This document shows, in pieces, positions 47,409-63,937 of a stretch of DNA of 64,000 nucleotides. Position numbers and translations under genes: made by a program. Origin of the DNA: Ensifer sesbaniae (lineage in GTDB: Bacteria; Pseudomonadota; Alphaproteobacteria; Rhizobiales; Rhizobiaceae); contig NZ_JABEKU010000001.1 of assembly GCF_013283665.1 (NCBI RefSeq), positions 806,001 to 870,000 of the forward strand, in the 5' to 3' direction. Numbering within the stretch: position 1 is the first letter of the stretch; every line of letters begins with the position of its first letter. The notes below the pieces were generated by a model. The model was not told the origin of the DNA. It searched no databases and worked only from the letters and a program-made list of their open reading frames with translations.

Positions 47409-47468
47409 GTGAGAACTATTCCAGTTGAAGCTTGCCTCAGGCATGCTGCGAGCGCGCGGCAGGCCGAT

Positions 47469-58471: not shown

Positions 58472-59209
58472 ATGGTCCGGCTTGTCGCCTTCATAGTCGC
58501 CATGACGGCGATGTCCGGTATTGCCGGCGCCCAGAGTTTTCCCTCTGATATCCTGAATACGCCGATCGAAGGGTCGGCAGCCTCGTGGATCATCCGCACC
58601 TTTGGTCTTCTGACCGTACTGTCGGTGGCCCCGGGCATCCTGATCATGGTCACCAGCTTTCCGCGCTTCGTGATCGCGTTTGCGATCCTGCGCACGGGCA
58701 TGGGTCTCGCGACCACGCCATCGAACATGATCATGGTTTCGCTGGCACTGTTCATGACCTTCTATGTCATGGGGCCGACCTTCGATCGCGCATGGCGCGA
58801 CGGCATCGATCCGCTGATGAAGAACCAGATCACCGAGAGCGAGGCGATCCCACGGATCAGCGAGCCGTTCCGCGAGTTCATGCTCGCCAACACCCGCGAC
58901 AAGGATCTGCAGCTCTTCATCGATATCGCCAAGGAAAAGGGCCAGACGGTCGTCGACGACGACAAGGTCGACCTCAGGGCGGTCGTGCCGGCCTTCATGA
59001 TCTCGGAAATCCGTCGCGGCTTCGAGATCGGCTTCCTGATCATGCTGCCGTTTCTGGTGATCGACCTGATCGTTGCCACCATCACCATGGCCATGGGCAT
59101 GATGATGCTGCCGCCAACGGCGATCTCCTTGCCCTTCAAGATCCTGTTCTTCGTGCTGATCGACGGATGGAACCTGCTCGTCGGCAGCCTGGTGCGCTCC
59201 TTCAGCTAA
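58472..59209 (+). CDS. fliP: Flagellar export gate protein FliP
   Basis: A 245-residue inner-membrane export gate component with a cleavable signal (cleavage near GIAGA-Q), then the motif ATTPSNMIMVSLALFMTFYV and a C-terminal span region LIVATITMAMGMMMLPPTAI. It ends the plus-strand operon. The end of the gene faces the convergent glycosyltransferase gene. Confidence 0.97.
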   Translation: MVRLVAFIVAMTAMSGIAGAQSFPSDILNTPIEGSAASWIIRTFGLLTVLSVAPGILIMVTSFPRFVIAFAILRTGMGLATTPSNMIMVSLALFMTFYVMGPTFDRAWRDGIDPLMKNQITESEAIPRISEPFREFMLANTRDKDLQLFIDIAKEKGQTVVDDDKVDLRAVVPAFMISEIRRGFEIGFLIMLPFLVIDLIVATITMAMGMMMLPPTAISLPFKILFFVLIDGWNLLVGSLVRSFS

Positions 59210-59255
59210 ATTAAAGATCCGTCATCGAACGTTTGGCGCGCTTGGAAAAGGCGCA

Positions 59256-59286
59256 AACAAAAAGGCAGCGCCTTGGCACTGCCTTT
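59256..59286. terminator. Convergent terminator between fliP and the glycosyltransferase gene
   Basis: AAAGGCAG and CTGCCTTT form a stem around a 10-base loop (59261-59286). On the minus strand it is followed by TTTTTGTTT, so it chiefly terminates the glycosyltransferase transcript. It may also stop fliP transcripts. Confidence 0.75.
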
Positions 59287-59312
59287 CCTCGTCCGGATAA
59301 GTGTCGGACTGC

Positions 59313-61226
59313 TTAGCGCTCGAACGAACCGGTCCGCGCCGGCAGGGCCGGAACGTCGATATGACCGGGCGCCAGACCTTTTCTCGCGCGATCAGCCATC
59401 ATTTCGTAGCCCTGTTCCAGGTGGCGGCAGAAGCGTTCGGAATCGAACAGCGGCATGCGGAACCGGTTTTCCTCCAGTGTTCTGCGGTAGTCGGCGATCT
59501 TGCCGCGGTTGTTGTAGAGCGCGACCGCCTCGCGAACATAGTCTTCCGGTCCCGCGGCGACGAGTTCCGGCACGCCGATGGCGTTGAGCAGGCTCTCGCT
59601 CACGCGTGAGGCGAAGTTGGTACCCTTGAAGGTCAAGACCGGAAGGCCGGCCCAGAGCTGCTCTGACGTTGTCGTGTGGCCGTTGTAGGGATAGGTGTCG
59701 AGGCCGATGTCCGCGACGGGGATGCGGCTGATATGGTCCTGATAGACGACCTTGGGGCATATGATGATGCGCTTGGGGTTGATGCCGGCGCTCTTGAATT
59801 TTGCGATGATGTTTGCGCGCGCGTCCGGGCGGCTGCACATCAGCCACAGCACGCTGTCCGGCGTCTGCCGAAGGATCTCGATCCATAGGTTGATCGTCTG
59901 CAACGAGATCTTGCGGTTGGCGTTGAACGAGGCGAAGACGAACGCGTCTTCGGGAAGGCCGAGCTGGCGACGCGACATAGGCTGCGGAAGCGGACGGTTG
60001 ATCGGATCGTTCGGCTGGTAGGTGTCTGGAAGCCTGCAGTATTTCTCGTAGTAATGCGGTTCGCTGCCGTCCGGCAGCACGTGCGGGTCGCCGATGATAT
60101 AGTCGAGGTCGACGTTGACCGTCGTCCCGGGAAAGCCGAGCCAGCTCACCTGGACGGGAGCCGTCTGCCGGTTGAAGATGTTCACCCGGCTTTCGAGCGT
60201 GTGTCCCTTCAGGTCGACGAGAATGTCGATGTTCTCGGCACGGATGACCTCCGCCGCCTGGTCGTCGCTAAGCTCGTTGATGGAAATGATCTTGCCCCAC
60301 TTTTCGCGGGACCCGTTATCGCGCGCGACGTTGTCGGGCGATGTGTGGCAGAAGAGAGTGATATCGAAACGCGAGCGATCATGTGCCATCAGCACGGCCG
60401 CGAGGAGCTTCATGGTCGCGTGGTCGTGCCAGAAGTCGGACGAGACATAGCCGATACGGATGCGCTCACCCCAGCTATGCGGCCGGCTCCGGCGTGCCTT
60501 TGCCAGTTCCTCCGGAAGGGCGCGCTGCATGGCTCCGGCGATGTAATTGAGCTTTTCGTCGCCGCACCAGGTGACGTGATAGTAGGGCGCTTCTGCGGCG
60601 AGAATGTCGTACTGGCCGAGTTTGAGTGACCGCTGGATATCGCGATCATGCTTCTCGACCTCCGCGTAGTCATTGGCTTCGCGGGCATAGACGAGATAGG
60701 CGGAACGCAGCGTCGTGTTCTTGGGATGCGTCTTGAAGAGATTGGCGACTGCCTCGCGGTCCTGCAGGTCGCCGACGTCGGCGGTCAGCAGCTTGAAGGC
60801 CAGCGCCTGATGATGACGGTTGCTGCTGGTCGACAGCGGCGCCTTGAACAGGCCGAGTATCTCCTTCTGGTCGCGCTTGAGGAAGATCGAAGCAATGATG
60901 AATGCGATCTCCGGATCCGTCTTGGCTTTCTCTAGCAGCGGAAGGCCGATGGCCAGCGCTTCGTCCTCGTGCCCGTTGACGAAATAGAGCTTCATCGCCT
61001 CGGTCAGATAGTCCTGCGACCGCGAACCGCCGGCCTCTCCGGCGAGCTGGTAGGCGCGCGCCGCCTCGGGCTTGAAACCGAGTTTCAGGAGCACCTTGGC
61101 AAGCAGCACATAGGTCTTCGTATCCCGGTTGATGTTCATCAGGATGTTGAGCTGGTCGAGCGCGTCCGTGTACTGGCCTTTCTGGTATTGCCGGGAAGCG
61201 GTCGAGAAGATGGCTTGGGCGTTCAC
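59313..61226 (-). CDS. TPR-containing GT41 (O-GlcNAc transferase/SPINDLY-like) glycosyltransferase, candidate flagellin glycosyltransferase
   Basis: A 637-residue soluble protein. Residues about 1-240 are helical repeats of TPR type (RQYQKGQYTDALDQLNILMN, then LLKLGFKPEAARAYQLAGEA). Residues about 255-600 form a GT41 domain: RIRIGYVSSDFWHDHATMKL, VDLKGHTLESR, APVQVSWLGFPGTT, and DTYPYNGHTTTSEQLWAGLP with ASRVSESLL, closely matching the UDP-sugar site of O-GlcNAc transferases. GTG at 61226 is chosen for its GGAG site 6 bases upstream; an ATG at 61328 would add 34 residues. Lying between fliP and flaA, it resembles in plan Caulobacter FlmG, a flagellin glycosyltransferase. The target is inferred, not shown; the sugar is unknown. 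Confidence 0.85.
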   Translation of the reverse strand: MNAQAIFSTASRQYQKGQYTDALDQLNILMNINRDTKTYVLLAKVLLKLGFKPEAARAYQLAGEAGGSRSQDYLTEAMKLYFVNGHEDEALAIGLPLLEKAKTDPEIAFIIASIFLKRDQKEILGLFKAPLSTSSNRHHQALAFKLLTADVGDLQDREAVANLFKTHPKNTTLRSAYLVYAREANDYAEVEKHDRDIQRSLKLGQYDILAAEAPYYHVTWCGDEKLNYIAGAMQRALPEELAKARRSRPHSWGERIRIGYVSSDFWHDHATMKLLAAVLMAHDRSRFDITLFCHTSPDNVARDNGSREKWGKIISINELSDDQAAEVIRAENIDILVDLKGHTLESRVNIFNRQTAPVQVSWLGFPGTTVNVDLDYIIGDPHVLPDGSEPHYYEKYCRLPDTYQPNDPINRPLPQPMSRRQLGLPEDAFVFASFNANRKISLQTINLWIEILRQTPDSVLWLMCSRPDARANIIAKFKSAGINPKRIIICPKVVYQDHISRIPVADIGLDTYPYNGHTTTSEQLWAGLPVLTFKGTNFASRVSESLLNAIGVPELVAAGPEDYVREAVALYNNRGKIADYRRTLEENRFRMPLFDSERFCRHLEQGYEMMADRARKGLAPGHIDVPALPARTGSFER

Positions 61227-61630
61227 TAGGAGCTCCGTCGAGTGTACAGGCCGGCTCGGGGCGAGACACCCCGATGTCGCAAAGCAGGTCTTACGGGTAT
61301 CGTAGAGGCGAAACCTTGCCTCAGGCATGACGCCGACGGCCCCTATGAAGCCGTTGTGTCTGTCTCAGGGAGAGCCATCGCGCAGGCTCTGGCCTCAGCC
61401 CGGTAAGCTGACTTAAAGCGTTGTTAAGTATAAACTATCTCTCGCCGACCCGGCTCGGTCATTTAAGGAATTCGCAAGCATTGGACTCGATATTCGGCCT
61501 CACATGACGGGTTTGGTTTCTTCCGAGATTGTCGTTGGAACCGAGAGGCATGAAGCCGATCCGCCATCACCGGTAGTGTAAACAGTCCGGTATGTCCCCC
61601 AATCGTCTTAAGTAAAAAAGGGACACTCTA
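61227..61630 (+). promoter_or_regulatory. flaA control region and 5' leader
   Basis: The 404 bases separate the divergent glycosyltransferase and flaA. The leader contains AGGCATGAAGCCGATCCGCC (61556-61575), then CACCGGTAG and CCGGTATGTCCC, which recur with few changes before flaB (62780-62827). GGGACA lies 8 bases before the flaA ATG. The shared leader suggests common control at RNA or DNA level. Confidence 0.55.
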
Positions 61631-62572
61631 ATGACGAGCATCATGACCAATTCCGCTGCAATGGGCGCTCTTGCTACCCTGCGTTCGATCAACTCGCAGA
61701 TGGAAACCACCCAGGACCGCATTTCGTCGGGCCTGCGCGTCGGTAGCGCCGCCGACAACGCCGCTTACTGGTCGATCGCAACCACCATGCGTTCGGACAA
61801 CAAGGCTCTCTCGACCGTTCAGGACGCCCTCGGCCTCGGCGCTGCCAAGACCGACGTTGCCTACACGGCCATGGAAAACTCCAAGGACGTTGTCGACGAG
61901 ATCAAGAAGAAGCTGGTTGCCGCCAGCGAGCCGGGCGTCGACAAGAGCAAGATCCAGAAGGAAATCAAGGAGCTGCAGAATCAGCTCATCAGCATTGCTA
62001 AGTCGGCTTCGTTCTCCGGCGAAAACTGGGTCTACAACGACGCCAACAACACCGCTGCCACCAAGTCGATCGTCGGTTCGTTCAACCGTGACGCCCAGGG
62101 CAACGTCAGCCTGACGACGCTGCAGTTCGACACGAACAAGAGCTCGCTGATCGAAGTCAACGCTTCCGGCTCCTACGTCACGAACGGCACGGGTCTGCTG
62201 TCCAGCAACATGGAGTACAAGGACGCAACCGGCTCGACGGTGACGGCTACCTACAGCGTCCTGACCATGGACATCACCAACATGACGACCGGTGATCTGG
62301 CCGGAGCCATCTCGGGCGTTGACGCAACGCTCTTGCAGATGACCGACGCTGCCGCCGACCTCGGTGCGCTCAACAGCCGCGTCGAACTGCAGAAGAATTT
62401 CGTTGAGGACCTCTCGGACTCGATCGAGAAGGGCATCGGCAAGCTCGTCGACGCCGACATGAACGAAGAGTCGACCCGTCTGAAGGCTCTGCAGACGCAG
62501 CAGCAGCTCGGCATCCAGGCGCTCACGATCGCCAACTCGAACTCGCAGAACATCCTGTCGCTGTTCCGTTAA
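61631..62572 (+). CDS. flaA: Flagellin FlaA
   Basis: A 313-residue flagellin of the short rhizobial type. The N-terminal helix is MTSIMTNSAAMGALATLRSI, followed by QMETTQDRISSGLRVGSAAD, and the C-terminal helix ends NSQNILSLFR. The central part (about 130-220) is small and rich in Ser, Thr and Asn, suitable sites for O-glycosylation. It differs from FlaB only at residues 8, 12 and 15. A terminator follows. Confidence 0.97.
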   Translation: MTSIMTNSAAMGALATLRSINSQMETTQDRISSGLRVGSAADNAAYWSIATTMRSDNKALSTVQDALGLGAAKTDVAYTAMENSKDVVDEIKKKLVAASEPGVDKSKIQKEIKELQNQLISIAKSASFSGENWVYNDANNTAATKSIVGSFNRDAQGNVSLTTLQFDTNKSSLIEVNASGSYVTNGTGLLSSNMEYKDATGSTVTATYSVLTMDITNMTTGDLAGAISGVDATLLQMTDAAADLGALNSRVELQKNFVEDLSDSIEKGIGKLVDADMNEESTRLKALQTQQQLGIQALTIANSNSQNILSLFR

Positions 62573-62622
62573 TCAAGGCCAGACGGCGCGGGTTTCGGCC
62601 CGCACCCGACTGCAGAAAATCG

Positions 62623-62653
62623 AAACCGCGCTTCCAAAGAGGCGCGGTTTTTT
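62623..62653 (+). terminator. Rho-independent terminator after flaA
   Basis: AAACCGCGC and GCGCGGTTT form a 9-base-pair stem around a 10-base loop, followed by TTT. It starts 50 bases after the flaA stop. Confidence 0.88.
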
Positions 62654-62712
62654 GTCGTGCATCTATCGGATGCTGGAACGTTGGGAAAATAATCGCGGCG
62701 TCTTAGGCCGGC

Positions 62713-62862
62713 GTTAACCACAATGGTGTTTGCTGTGTCCATCGAAGGAGCGGGTTAACCAACGATATTAACCGGTTAACAGGCATGAAGCTGACCGCTG
62801 CTTCCCGGTAGCTCCCGGAATGTCCCTTTTCACGAGTATTGCCAACAAGGGGCACTCAGCCA
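62713..62862 (+). promoter_or_regulatory. flaB control region and leader, repeated after flaB
   Basis: GTTAACCACAATGGTGTTTG opens a stretch that recurs at 63938-64000, including GCGGGTTAA, AACG, and TTAACAGGCAT. It contains four GTTAAC-like boxes. The 3' part (62780-62827) matches the flaA leader. This is the likely promoter/operator and 5' leader of flaB. Confidence 0.6.
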
Positions 62863-63804
62863 ATGACCAGCATCATGACGAACACCGCCGCAATGGCCGC
62901 GCTTCAGACCCTGCGTTCGATCAACTCGCAGATGGAAACCACCCAGGACCGCATTTCGTCGGGCCTGCGCGTCGGTAGCGCCGCCGACAACGCCGCTTAC
63001 TGGTCGATCGCAACCACCATGCGTTCGGACAACAAGGCTCTCTCGACCGTTCAGGACGCCCTCGGCCTCGGCGCTGCCAAGACCGACGTTGCCTACACGG
63101 CCATGGAAAACTCCAAGGACGTTGTCGACGAGATCAAGAAGAAGCTGGTTGCCGCCAGCGAGCCGGGCGTCGACAAGAGCAAGATCCAGAAGGAAATCAA
63201 GGAGCTGCAGAATCAGCTCATCAGCATTGCTAAGTCGGCTTCGTTCTCCGGCGAAAACTGGGTCTACAACGACGCCAACAACACCGCTGCCACCAAGTCG
63301 ATCGTCGGTTCGTTCAACCGTGACGCCCAGGGCAACGTCAGCCTGACGACGCTGCAGTTCGACACGAACAAGAGCTCGCTGATCGAAGTCAACGCTTCCG
63401 GCTCCTACGTCACGAACGGCACGGGTCTGCTGTCCAGCAACATGGAGTACAAGGACGCAACCGGCTCGACGGTGACGGCTACCTACAGCGTCCTGACCAT
63501 GGACATCACCAACATGACGACCGGTGATCTGGCCGGAGCCATCTCGGGCGTTGACGCAACGCTCTTGCAGATGACCGACGCTGCCGCCGACCTCGGTGCG
63601 CTCAACAGCCGCGTCGAACTGCAGAAGAATTTCGTTGAGGACCTCTCGGACTCGATCGAGAAGGGCATCGGCAAGCTCGTCGACGCCGACATGAACGAAG
63701 AGTCGACCCGTCTGAAGGCTCTGCAGACGCAGCAGCAGCTCGGCATCCAGGCGCTCACGATCGCCAACTCGAACTCGCAGAACATCCTGTCGCTGTTCCG
63801 TTAA
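62863..63804 (+). CDS. flaB: Flagellin FlaB
   Basis: A 313-residue flagellin. It starts MTSIMTNTAAMAALQTLRSI and from residue 16 on is identical to FlaA. The ATG at 62863 is used, as it matches flaA; a TTG at 62839 in frame has no family support. AAGGGGCA lies about 13-20 bases upstream. The identity at the DNA level extends from the third codon-differing site to 10 bases past the stop. Confidence 0.97.
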   Translation: MTSIMTNTAAMAALQTLRSINSQMETTQDRISSGLRVGSAADNAAYWSIATTMRSDNKALSTVQDALGLGAAKTDVAYTAMENSKDVVDEIKKKLVAASEPGVDKSKIQKEIKELQNQLISIAKSASFSGENWVYNDANNTAATKSIVGSFNRDAQGNVSLTTLQFDTNKSSLIEVNASGSYVTNGTGLLSSNMEYKDATGSTVTATYSVLTMDITNMTTGDLAGAISGVDATLLQMTDAAADLGALNSRVELQKNFVEDLSDSIEKGIGKLVDADMNEESTRLKALQTQQQLGIQALTIANSNSQNILSLFR

Positions 63805-63814
63805 TCAAGGCCAG
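62908..63814. repeat. About 907-base direct repeat of 61676-62582 (flaA/flaB)
   Basis: The two segments are 1232 bases apart and appear identical by eye, including third codon positions and 10 bases past the stop codons. Similarity continues more weakly into the terminators. The identity starts right after the last differing codon (Ala15/Gln15). Confidence 0.9.
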
Positions 63815-63854
63815 GCGGCGCGGGTTTCGGCCCGCGCCCGACCGCAGCAAATCG

Positions 63855-63887
63855 AAACCGCGCTTCGCAGGAGGCGCGGTTTCCTTT
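63855..63887 (+). terminator. Rho-independent terminator after flaB
   Basis: AAACCGCGC and GCGCGGTTT pair as in the flaA terminator, followed by CCTTTT. The loop sequence differs. Confidence 0.85.
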
Positions 63888-63937
63888 TGGTCGAATCCGG
63901 CAGCTTCTATCGAAATATCGGCTCCGCTTCAGTCTTT

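Follow-up and report, generated by a model that had tools for sequence, protein, structure and literature searches.

We analyzed a stretch of 64,000 nucleotides from Ensifer sesbaniae (assembly GCF_013283665.1, contig NZ_JABEKU010000001.1, positions 806,001 to 870,000 of the forward strand; hereafter the window) and found that a gene on its minus strand (59313-61226) very probably encodes a cytoplasmic protein O-glycosyltransferase of the GT41 family, which would be dedicated to flagellin and would form an exchangeable cassette with the flagellin genes flaA and flaB. The sequences revealed a tetratricopeptide repeat (TPR)-like part joined to a glycosyltransferase (GT) region with GT41 motifs, linkage of the gene to flagellin in eight genera, and a history shared by the enzyme and flaA that was unlike that of the flanking genes. 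Flagellin is the likely substrate because of the linkage in eight genera, the apparent co-exchange with flaA and the way in which the N-terminal part co-varies with flagellin, and this evolutionary evidence appears to be the best support for an assignment that the initial annotation, a first examination of this DNA, had already put forward.

In the mechanism that we propose, the N-terminal TPR-like superhelix would bind newly made FlaA and FlaB, and the C-terminal GT41 domain would glycosylate Ser/Thr residues of the outer, exposed part of flagellin. The donor would be a common nucleotide sugar, likeliest UDP-GlcNAc or another UDP-hexose. Glycosylation would precede export through the FliP-containing gate, and the enzyme would follow its flagellins in movement and divergence rather than the basal-body genes of the opposite flank. 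We infer the catalysis, the acceptor residues, the sugar and the timing before export.

Architecture and catalytic motifs

The protein scored 238.8 bits with the Pfam model PF13844 (GT41; cut-off 25, E 1.2e-70), which places it in the GT41 family. The catalytic region comprises residues 250-637 (59316-60479, minus strand). Within this region, H269, K439, H517-T518-T519, R541 and V542 were invariant in 19/19 aligned sequences, and A539 was nearly invariant. The NGHTT and ASRV segments, from which the initial annotation had recognized a GT41 domain, were both found to be intact, and the NGHTT segment matched that of OGT. We take H269, K439 and H517-T519 to correspond to H498, K842 and the HTT segment of human OGT, as read from sequence alignments. 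Nothing in the sequence suggests a dead enzyme.

An AlphaFold2 model calculated from 19 sequences showed a mean predicted local distance difference test (pLDDT) of 78.6 and a predicted template modelling score of 0.76, with residues 363-405 below a pLDDT of 50. The model contained 12 helices across residues 3-202 and an alpha/beta region beyond residue 255. Using Foldseek, we found that the best 50 PDB matches listed were all OGT, SPINDLY, XcOGT or Thermobaculum OGT chains, with identities of 20-28%. By sequence, the nearest solved structures were Drosophila OGT, XcOGT and human OGT (2e-60 to 6e-56), followed by Thermobaculum OGT (4e-48) and SPINDLY (4e-46), and NGT-type chains matched at 2e-7 or weaker. 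Neither Pfam nor the AlphaFold2 model revealed extra domains beyond the TPR-like and GT parts.

The helical, TPR-like part at the N-terminus (residues 1-212; 60591-61226, minus strand) is the proposed flagellin-binding module, on the grounds of the predicted model and the co-variation with flagellin described below. In its predicted fold, this part is a TPR superhelix of the OGT type, but the sequence signal was weak, as Pfam TPR models gave sub-threshold matches only (ANAPC3 1.2e-3, TPR_20 0.057). The TPR-like repeats that the initial annotation had noted were thus recovered as a fold of 12 predicted helices and hardly at the level of Pfam. In a search of the class Alphaproteobacteria, 129/385 genomes matched the window protein. 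Among the matches listed in other genomes, the alignment started at query residue 158 or later, with one exception at residue 85, and because of this the N-terminal part seems to be specific to Rhizobiaceae.

Linkage of the GT41 gene to flagellin

The GT41 gene was found in one copy each in 16/16 genomes of the window's genus and is the single GT41 gene of the E. sesbaniae genome. Among a set of 16 fetched loci, it lay between fliP and a flagellin gene in 15, and the 16th (L018) was without flagellin in its flanks. Across Rhizobiaceae, 76 of 297 genomes, belonging to 29 of 109 genera, matched at E 1e-20 or better, and many of the listed matches covered the GT domain alone. The initial annotation had suggested a search of related genomes for co-occurrence with flagellin; among the best 30 Rhizobiaceae genomes with a locus, a flagellin gene was located within 1.5 kb of the GT41 gene in 20. 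The flagellin-linked genera (codes g1, g18, g30, g48, g55, g92 and g97, plus Sinorhizobium) amounted to eight, the linkage in Sinorhizobium having been reached via named loci and not via the family draw. In g18 and g97, flagellin adjoins GT41, yet fliP was not present within 1.5 kb; the bond of the GT41 gene is therefore to flagellin.

A GT-domain tree was calculated from search matches having a fetched locus (66 rows, from 62 loci with additional copies from L018 and L127). The 22 flagellin-linked genes, represented by 23 rows since L035 and L127_1 are one gene, formed one clade (support 98/88) with an unlinked sister sequence (L027), and 29 relatives from other alphaproteobacterial families, drawn from the class search above, fell outside this clade. 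The initial annotation had also raised the possibility of an insertion peculiar to the lineage. We rejected this explanation on the basis of the 16/16 presence in the genus, the linked clade in eight genera and the base composition. In particular, the GC content and the GC content at third codon positions were 61.1% and 81% for the GT41 gene, 59.5% and 85% for fliP, and 59.7% and 84% for flaA, and the gene is unlike a recent foreign insert because these values are close to those of its neighbors.

Sinorhizobium offered a comparison within one genus. The full-length gene was present in 12/33 genomes (72-74% identity), and in 12/12 of these the flagellins were 84-87% identical to FlaA, whereas the best-scoring flagellin of the 21 genomes without a full-length gene was 58-64% identical. 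In the latter group, flagellin directly followed fliP in 18/21 genomes, two stretches were cut by contig ends, and one genome (L098) carried 1.75 kb without GT41 or flagellin between fliP and flagellin. The layout of these 18 genomes fits the one that the initial annotation gave for S. meliloti, with flaA directly after fliP. The pattern is consistent with an association of gene presence and flagellin type, with too few events for a strong test.

Side observations were made at loci away from flagellin. The neighbors of unlinked full-length relatives included znuA (L134, L137), a cobW-type gene (L128), a zincin gene and a GH43 gene. Allorhizobium undicola (L018) carried three GT41 genes within 8 kb; the fetched 10.4 kb contained no flagellin match, and flagellin matches were located elsewhere in its genome.

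Shared history of the enzyme and flaA

The loci of the window's genus, whose record titles mix Ensifer and Sinorhizobium, fell into two groups: Ensifer clade 1 with 8 loci, the window among them, and Ensifer clade 2 with 7. FliP proteins of clades 1 and 2 shared a mean identity of 96.7%, and those of clade 1 and the 12 Sinorhizobium with GT41 one of 91.1%; the corresponding values for FliL were 88.0 and 82.8. For GT41 the order was reversed, with 60.9% between the two clades versus 71.5% between clade 1 and GT41-bearing Sinorhizobium, and for the flagellin adjacent to GT41 the values were 72.5% and 82.1%.

The trees revealed the same conflict. In a DNA tree of fliP, fliL, flgH and flgI (34 rows with all four genes complete, with L121 and the GT41-lacking Sinorhizobium L117 both entered as 'other'), clades 1 and 2 stood together (98/97), and a grouping of clade 1 with GT41-bearing Sinorhizobium was rejected with a log-likelihood 178 lower, part of this cost being that of splitting GT41-bearing from GT41-lacking Sinorhizobium. 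In the GT41 tree, clade 1 joined Sinorhizobium (99/98), and forcing the genus together cost 14.4 log units (p 0.015). The flaA tree, for which the flagellin nearest GT41 was used, also joined clade 1 to Sinorhizobium (96/94), at a cost of 11.8 log units for the forced genus (p 0.035). GT41 and flagellin thus seem to have been transferred together, because their trees agree with each other and conflict with the tree of the flanking genes. The simplest reading is that GT41 and the flagellin genes flanking it were exchanged as a block, whose left edge would lie between fliP and GT41; flaB presumably moved along with GT41 and flaA.

Correlated divergence of the N-terminal part and flagellin

At 34 loci, we compared the pairwise distances of GT41 with those of FlaA. 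These loci remained from 39 in which the fetched stretch held fliP and a GT41 gene next to flagellin, after removal of loci identical over the final 600 residues of GT41; the flagellins of L003 and L015 were incomplete in the fetched stretch. The correlation was 0.96, the partial correlation given FliP was 0.88, and 0/2000 label permutations were as high, with the permutation taking no account of relatedness among the loci. When the protein was divided, the N-terminal part, partial on the GT domain, correlated at 0.67 with flagellin D0/D1 and at 0.60 with the outer part, and the GT domain, partial on the N-terminal part, correlated at 0.07 and 0.26, respectively; these four values come without a significance test. 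The comparison suggests that flagellin divergence is mirrored better by the N-terminal part than by the GT domain, as expected of a flagellin-binding module. Alternatively, the faster evolution of the N-terminal part (mean distance 0.39 versus 0.31) could allow it to resolve the same history better. For FlmG of Caulobacter crescentus, the excerpted text of PMC7591256 describes binding of the TPR part to flagellin in a two-hybrid assay.

Points against a flagellin-dedicated cassette and other explanations

Several observations weigh against a flagellin-dedicated enzyme that is exchanged with its flagellins. Full-length relatives away from flagellin occupied 10 of the 30 Rhizobiaceae loci, and because of them the TPR-like/GT41 architecture alone does not imply a flagellin substrate. 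In GT41-lacking Sinorhizobium, partial N-terminal flagellin matches reached 67-69%, so that the contrast with GT41-bearing genomes was smaller there, and gene presence and flagellin type changed three times on the fliP tree, giving one independent pair on well-supported branches and three on all branches. The fliP-only tree left the two genus clades unresolved. The last-flagellin tree placed the genus together (81/92) without rejecting the other topology (p 0.069), and the last-flagellin identities were 83.4 between clades 1 and 2, 81.8 between clade 1 and Sinorhizobium and 84.6 between clade 2 and Sinorhizobium; the last flagellin departs from the pattern of GT41 and flaA, but appears ambiguous and settles little. 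Few Ser/Thr columns were specific to GT41-bearing flagellins, as described in the next section. The sub-threshold Pfam TPR matches, the relatedness among the permuted loci and the missing significance test for the divided protein count on the same side. Additionally, neighboring genes can be co-exchanged without a functional link, and parallel fast divergence of GT41 and flaA in clade 2, itself a form of co-evolution, may have produced the conflicting trees.

Among explanations with another substrate, the one that fares best is a regulator similar to GmaR or SPINDLY whose target, by modification or binding, would be a flagellar transcription factor, with flagellin not being the main substrate. 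The position of the gene at a flagellin locus agrees with such a role, and GmaR links GT activity to flagellar regulation (PMC9638930, in excerpt). We nevertheless consider a regulator improbable, as the shared history and the N-terminal co-variation were with flaA and not with the flanking flagellar genes, and the protein consists of TPR-like and GT parts only, with no added domain. A bystander that modifies another protein or glycan and stands beside flaA by chance or through shared regulation is even less probable: linked genes can hitch-hike and full-length relatives exist away from flagellin, but the flagellin neighborhood was kept in eight genera, even where fliP was not within 1.5 kb (L031, L033-L037), the linked genes formed a single clade in the GT-domain tree, and the window's genome holds no alternative substrate of the ALTTAQ type (see below).

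Sugar donor and acceptor sites

The donor of OGT-type enzymes is UDP-GlcNAc and that of SPINDLY is GDP-fucose, in agreement with the PDB titles. For the window enzyme, we lean slightly towards a UDP-sugar, with GlcNAc as the first candidate. NeuB (PF03102) was absent genome-wide in E. sesbaniae, and the Caulobacter control was positive. A nonulosonic acid donor of the FlmG kind is unlikely because NeuB, through which it would be made, is absent from the genome, and this donor was set aside. The Maf route was likewise set aside; PF01973 (MptE-like), which we take to be the Maf domain, was found neither in the window GT41 protein nor in the genome, a weak test since the controls were positive only in archaea.

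The outer part of FlaA contained 26 Ser/Thr among 88 residues (30%). We called a column Ser/Thr-specific when 90% or more of 50 distinct GT41-bearing Ensifer/Sinorhizobium flagellins, and no more than 35% of 48 flagellins from GT41-lacking genomes, had Ser/Thr there, and found seven such columns (74, 79, 162, 168, 191, 203 and 216). These columns held Ser/Thr in 31-64% of 39 flagellins from other GT41-linked genera, and in the last flagellins, Ser/Thr occupied columns 162, 168, 191 and 203 in 77-100% of cases. The seven columns may serve as leads, not as sites. A structure model of flagellin had a mean pLDDT of 65.6 and was too poor for placing acceptor sites.

An improbable chemistry is that of a flagellin N-glycosyltransferase which would belong to the HMW1C/NGT branch of GT41 and modify N-X-S/T sequons in the core of flagellin: NGTs do belong to GT41, and sequons exceeded chance in the outer part of window FlaA (5 in 88 residues versus a shuffle mean of 2.3, P 0.044), in GT41-bearing Ensifer/Sinorhizobium flagellins (2.7 per outer part versus 1.8 shuffled) and in the last flagellins of these genomes (1.95 versus 0.98), but this excess was slight and was not clear in flagellins of other GT41-linked genera (1.41 versus 1.29), the NCBIfam NGT model scored 32.4 against a cut-off of 1000, which places the protein outside that equivalog, and the PDB matches (2e-60 for OGT) and the NGHTT segment were OGT-like, so that N-glycosylation was mostly rejected.

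Gene, start codon and immediate surroundings

The open reading frame of the GT41 gene has 638 codons including the stop codon and encodes 637 residues. The initial annotation had given its coordinates and its minus-strand position between fliP and flaA exactly, and Pfam confirmed the neighbors. The gene starts with GTG at 61226, and an alternative in-frame ATG lies upstream at 61328. We favor the GTG because the start codon and a preceding GGAG are kept with identical spacing in 15 relatives (L003-L017; GTG in 2 and TTG in 13). The ATG was missing from some of 8 aligned loci. A terminator hairpin with a U-tract is located 3' of the gene (59255-59286, minus strand); its fold z-score was -3.5 and 0/200 shuffles were as stable, in agreement with the terminator of its own that had been ascribed to the gene.

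On one side, GT41 is convergent with the export-gate gene fliP (58472-59209, plus strand), which would lie outside the exchanged unit and is preceded by flgI, flgH and fliL; all four genes were identified by Pfam. On the other side, a divergent intergenic region of 404 bp (61227-61630), with several blocks conserved among the 8 aligned loci, separates GT41 from flaA (61631-62572, plus strand), downstream of which flaB is located (62863-63804, plus strand). Both flagellins, identified by Pfam, are proposed acceptor substrates, and two further flagellins are present just past the window end (locus L116). FlaA and FlaB were identical at 310/313 residues, with all three differences within residues 1-15, and flaA and flaB differed at 10/942 bases, a near-identity that presumably results from recent duplication or gene conversion.

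A sigma-70 promoter scan of 58900-63900 found 0 promoters. We also observed that the word CTTGCCTCAGGCA, with the palindromic core TGCCTCAGGCA, has exactly two mismatch-free copies in the 6.9-Mb genome, both in the flagellar region: one upstream of GT41 (61315-61327) and one at the junction of two FliM/FliN-type genes (47431-47443). Of the loci fetched, only loci of Ensifer clade 1 had an exact copy upstream of GT41. This pattern was noticed post hoc and may be due to chance.

A second GT41 type near ALTTAQ-repeat proteins

A second GT41 type was observed in Rhizobiaceae; in six Sinorhizobium loci, its GT domain was 37-40% identical to that of the window protein. In 7/7 loci examined (L127:2814-13575, L169-L174), it was found near giant Ser/Thr-rich proteins with ALTTAQ repeats, which have about 1700-2400 residues and 24-28% Ser/Thr, several of them starting with MTSI as flagellins do. 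The ALTTAQ identity was established by Pfam for four proteins of three loci. A UDP-galactopyranose mutase gene was present within about 2 kb in 7/7 of these loci (by Pfam in L127, L172 and L174). The L127 locus, whose GT41 copy L127_2 is an ALTTAQ-linked paralog, sits between cheB and fliF. These arrangements suggest a glycosylated giant protein that is possibly exported by the flagellum. No mention of ALTTAQ was found in the open-licence papers searched. As a substrate of the window enzyme, an ALTTAQ protein was rejected, since none is present in the window's genome.

Comparison with known systems

Flagellins of R. leguminosarum are probably glycosylated, as judged by staining (PMC2936354, in excerpt), and for Agrobacterium sp. 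H13-3 the available portion of PMC8310070 refers to preliminary data not shown. An enzyme named for flagellin glycosylation in rhizobia or agrobacteria was not found in searches of the open-licence literature, and the window GT41 gene is a concrete, deletable candidate for this role in rhizobia. If the enzyme and its flagellins do form a cassette, nature would provide matched and mismatched enzyme-flagellin pairs for studying substrate choice by TPR parts, and soil bacteria could change the face seen by plants and by flagellum-binding phages. As a tentative extension, somewhat less likely than not, a flagellin and its own TPR-GT41 may together make up a 'glycotype cassette' of Rhizobiaceae that is self-contained and can be exchanged horizontally, in which filament and modifier are swapped together while the export machine is kept and the TPR part acts as the matched specificity element; related GT41 enzymes may have been recruited repeatedly for substrates of flagellar loci, including ALTTAQ proteins with UDP-galactopyranose mutase.

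The known flagellin enzyme with the most similar architecture is FlmG of Caulobacter crescentus, another alphaproteobacterium. According to the excerpt of PMC7591256, FlmG is a cytoplasmic protein of about 600 residues with an N-terminal TPR part and a C-terminal GT-B part, and it is required for flagellin modification. The parallel drawn by the initial annotation held for the architecture, by which alone the two were compared, but did not extend to the sugar: FlmG needs pseudaminic acid (same excerpt), and the window's genome is without NeuB. The window gene also differs in being divergent from flaA in a fliP-GT41-flaA arrangement. Listeria GmaR, also cited in the initial annotation, is a flagellin GlcNAc transferase with a TPR domain (PMC9638930, same excerpt). 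The likeness is functional, but the domain order is reversed, as GmaR consists of GT, TPR, linker and antirepressor domains in this order, and the window protein has no antirepressor domain. The human, Drosophila and XcOGT enzymes share the TPR superhelix followed by a GT41 region, with aligned His, Lys and HTT positions; in contrast to them, the window gene is linked to flagellin, and the identity in the structural matches listed was 20-28%. The SPINDLY-family GT41 genes of enterobacteria are also found at a flagellin locus, where the predicted sugar is a GlcNAc derivative. Nearly all of them have methyltransferase domains and lie in multi-gene islands (both points from the excerpt of PMC4875605), whereas the window has a single gene.

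A GT41 gene at a flagellin locus, predicted in enterobacteria (PMC4875605), and an experimentally studied TPR and GT-B flagellin enzyme in Caulobacter (PMC7591256) were thus already known, as the excerpts of these two papers indicate. We found no description of a flagellin-linked GT41 arrangement in Rhizobiaceae in the open-licence literature. What is apparently new is a third, single-gene arrangement in Rhizobiaceae, which is linked to flagellin in eight genera, occurs in the window in a genome without NeuB, and seems to have been exchanged together with its flagellin.

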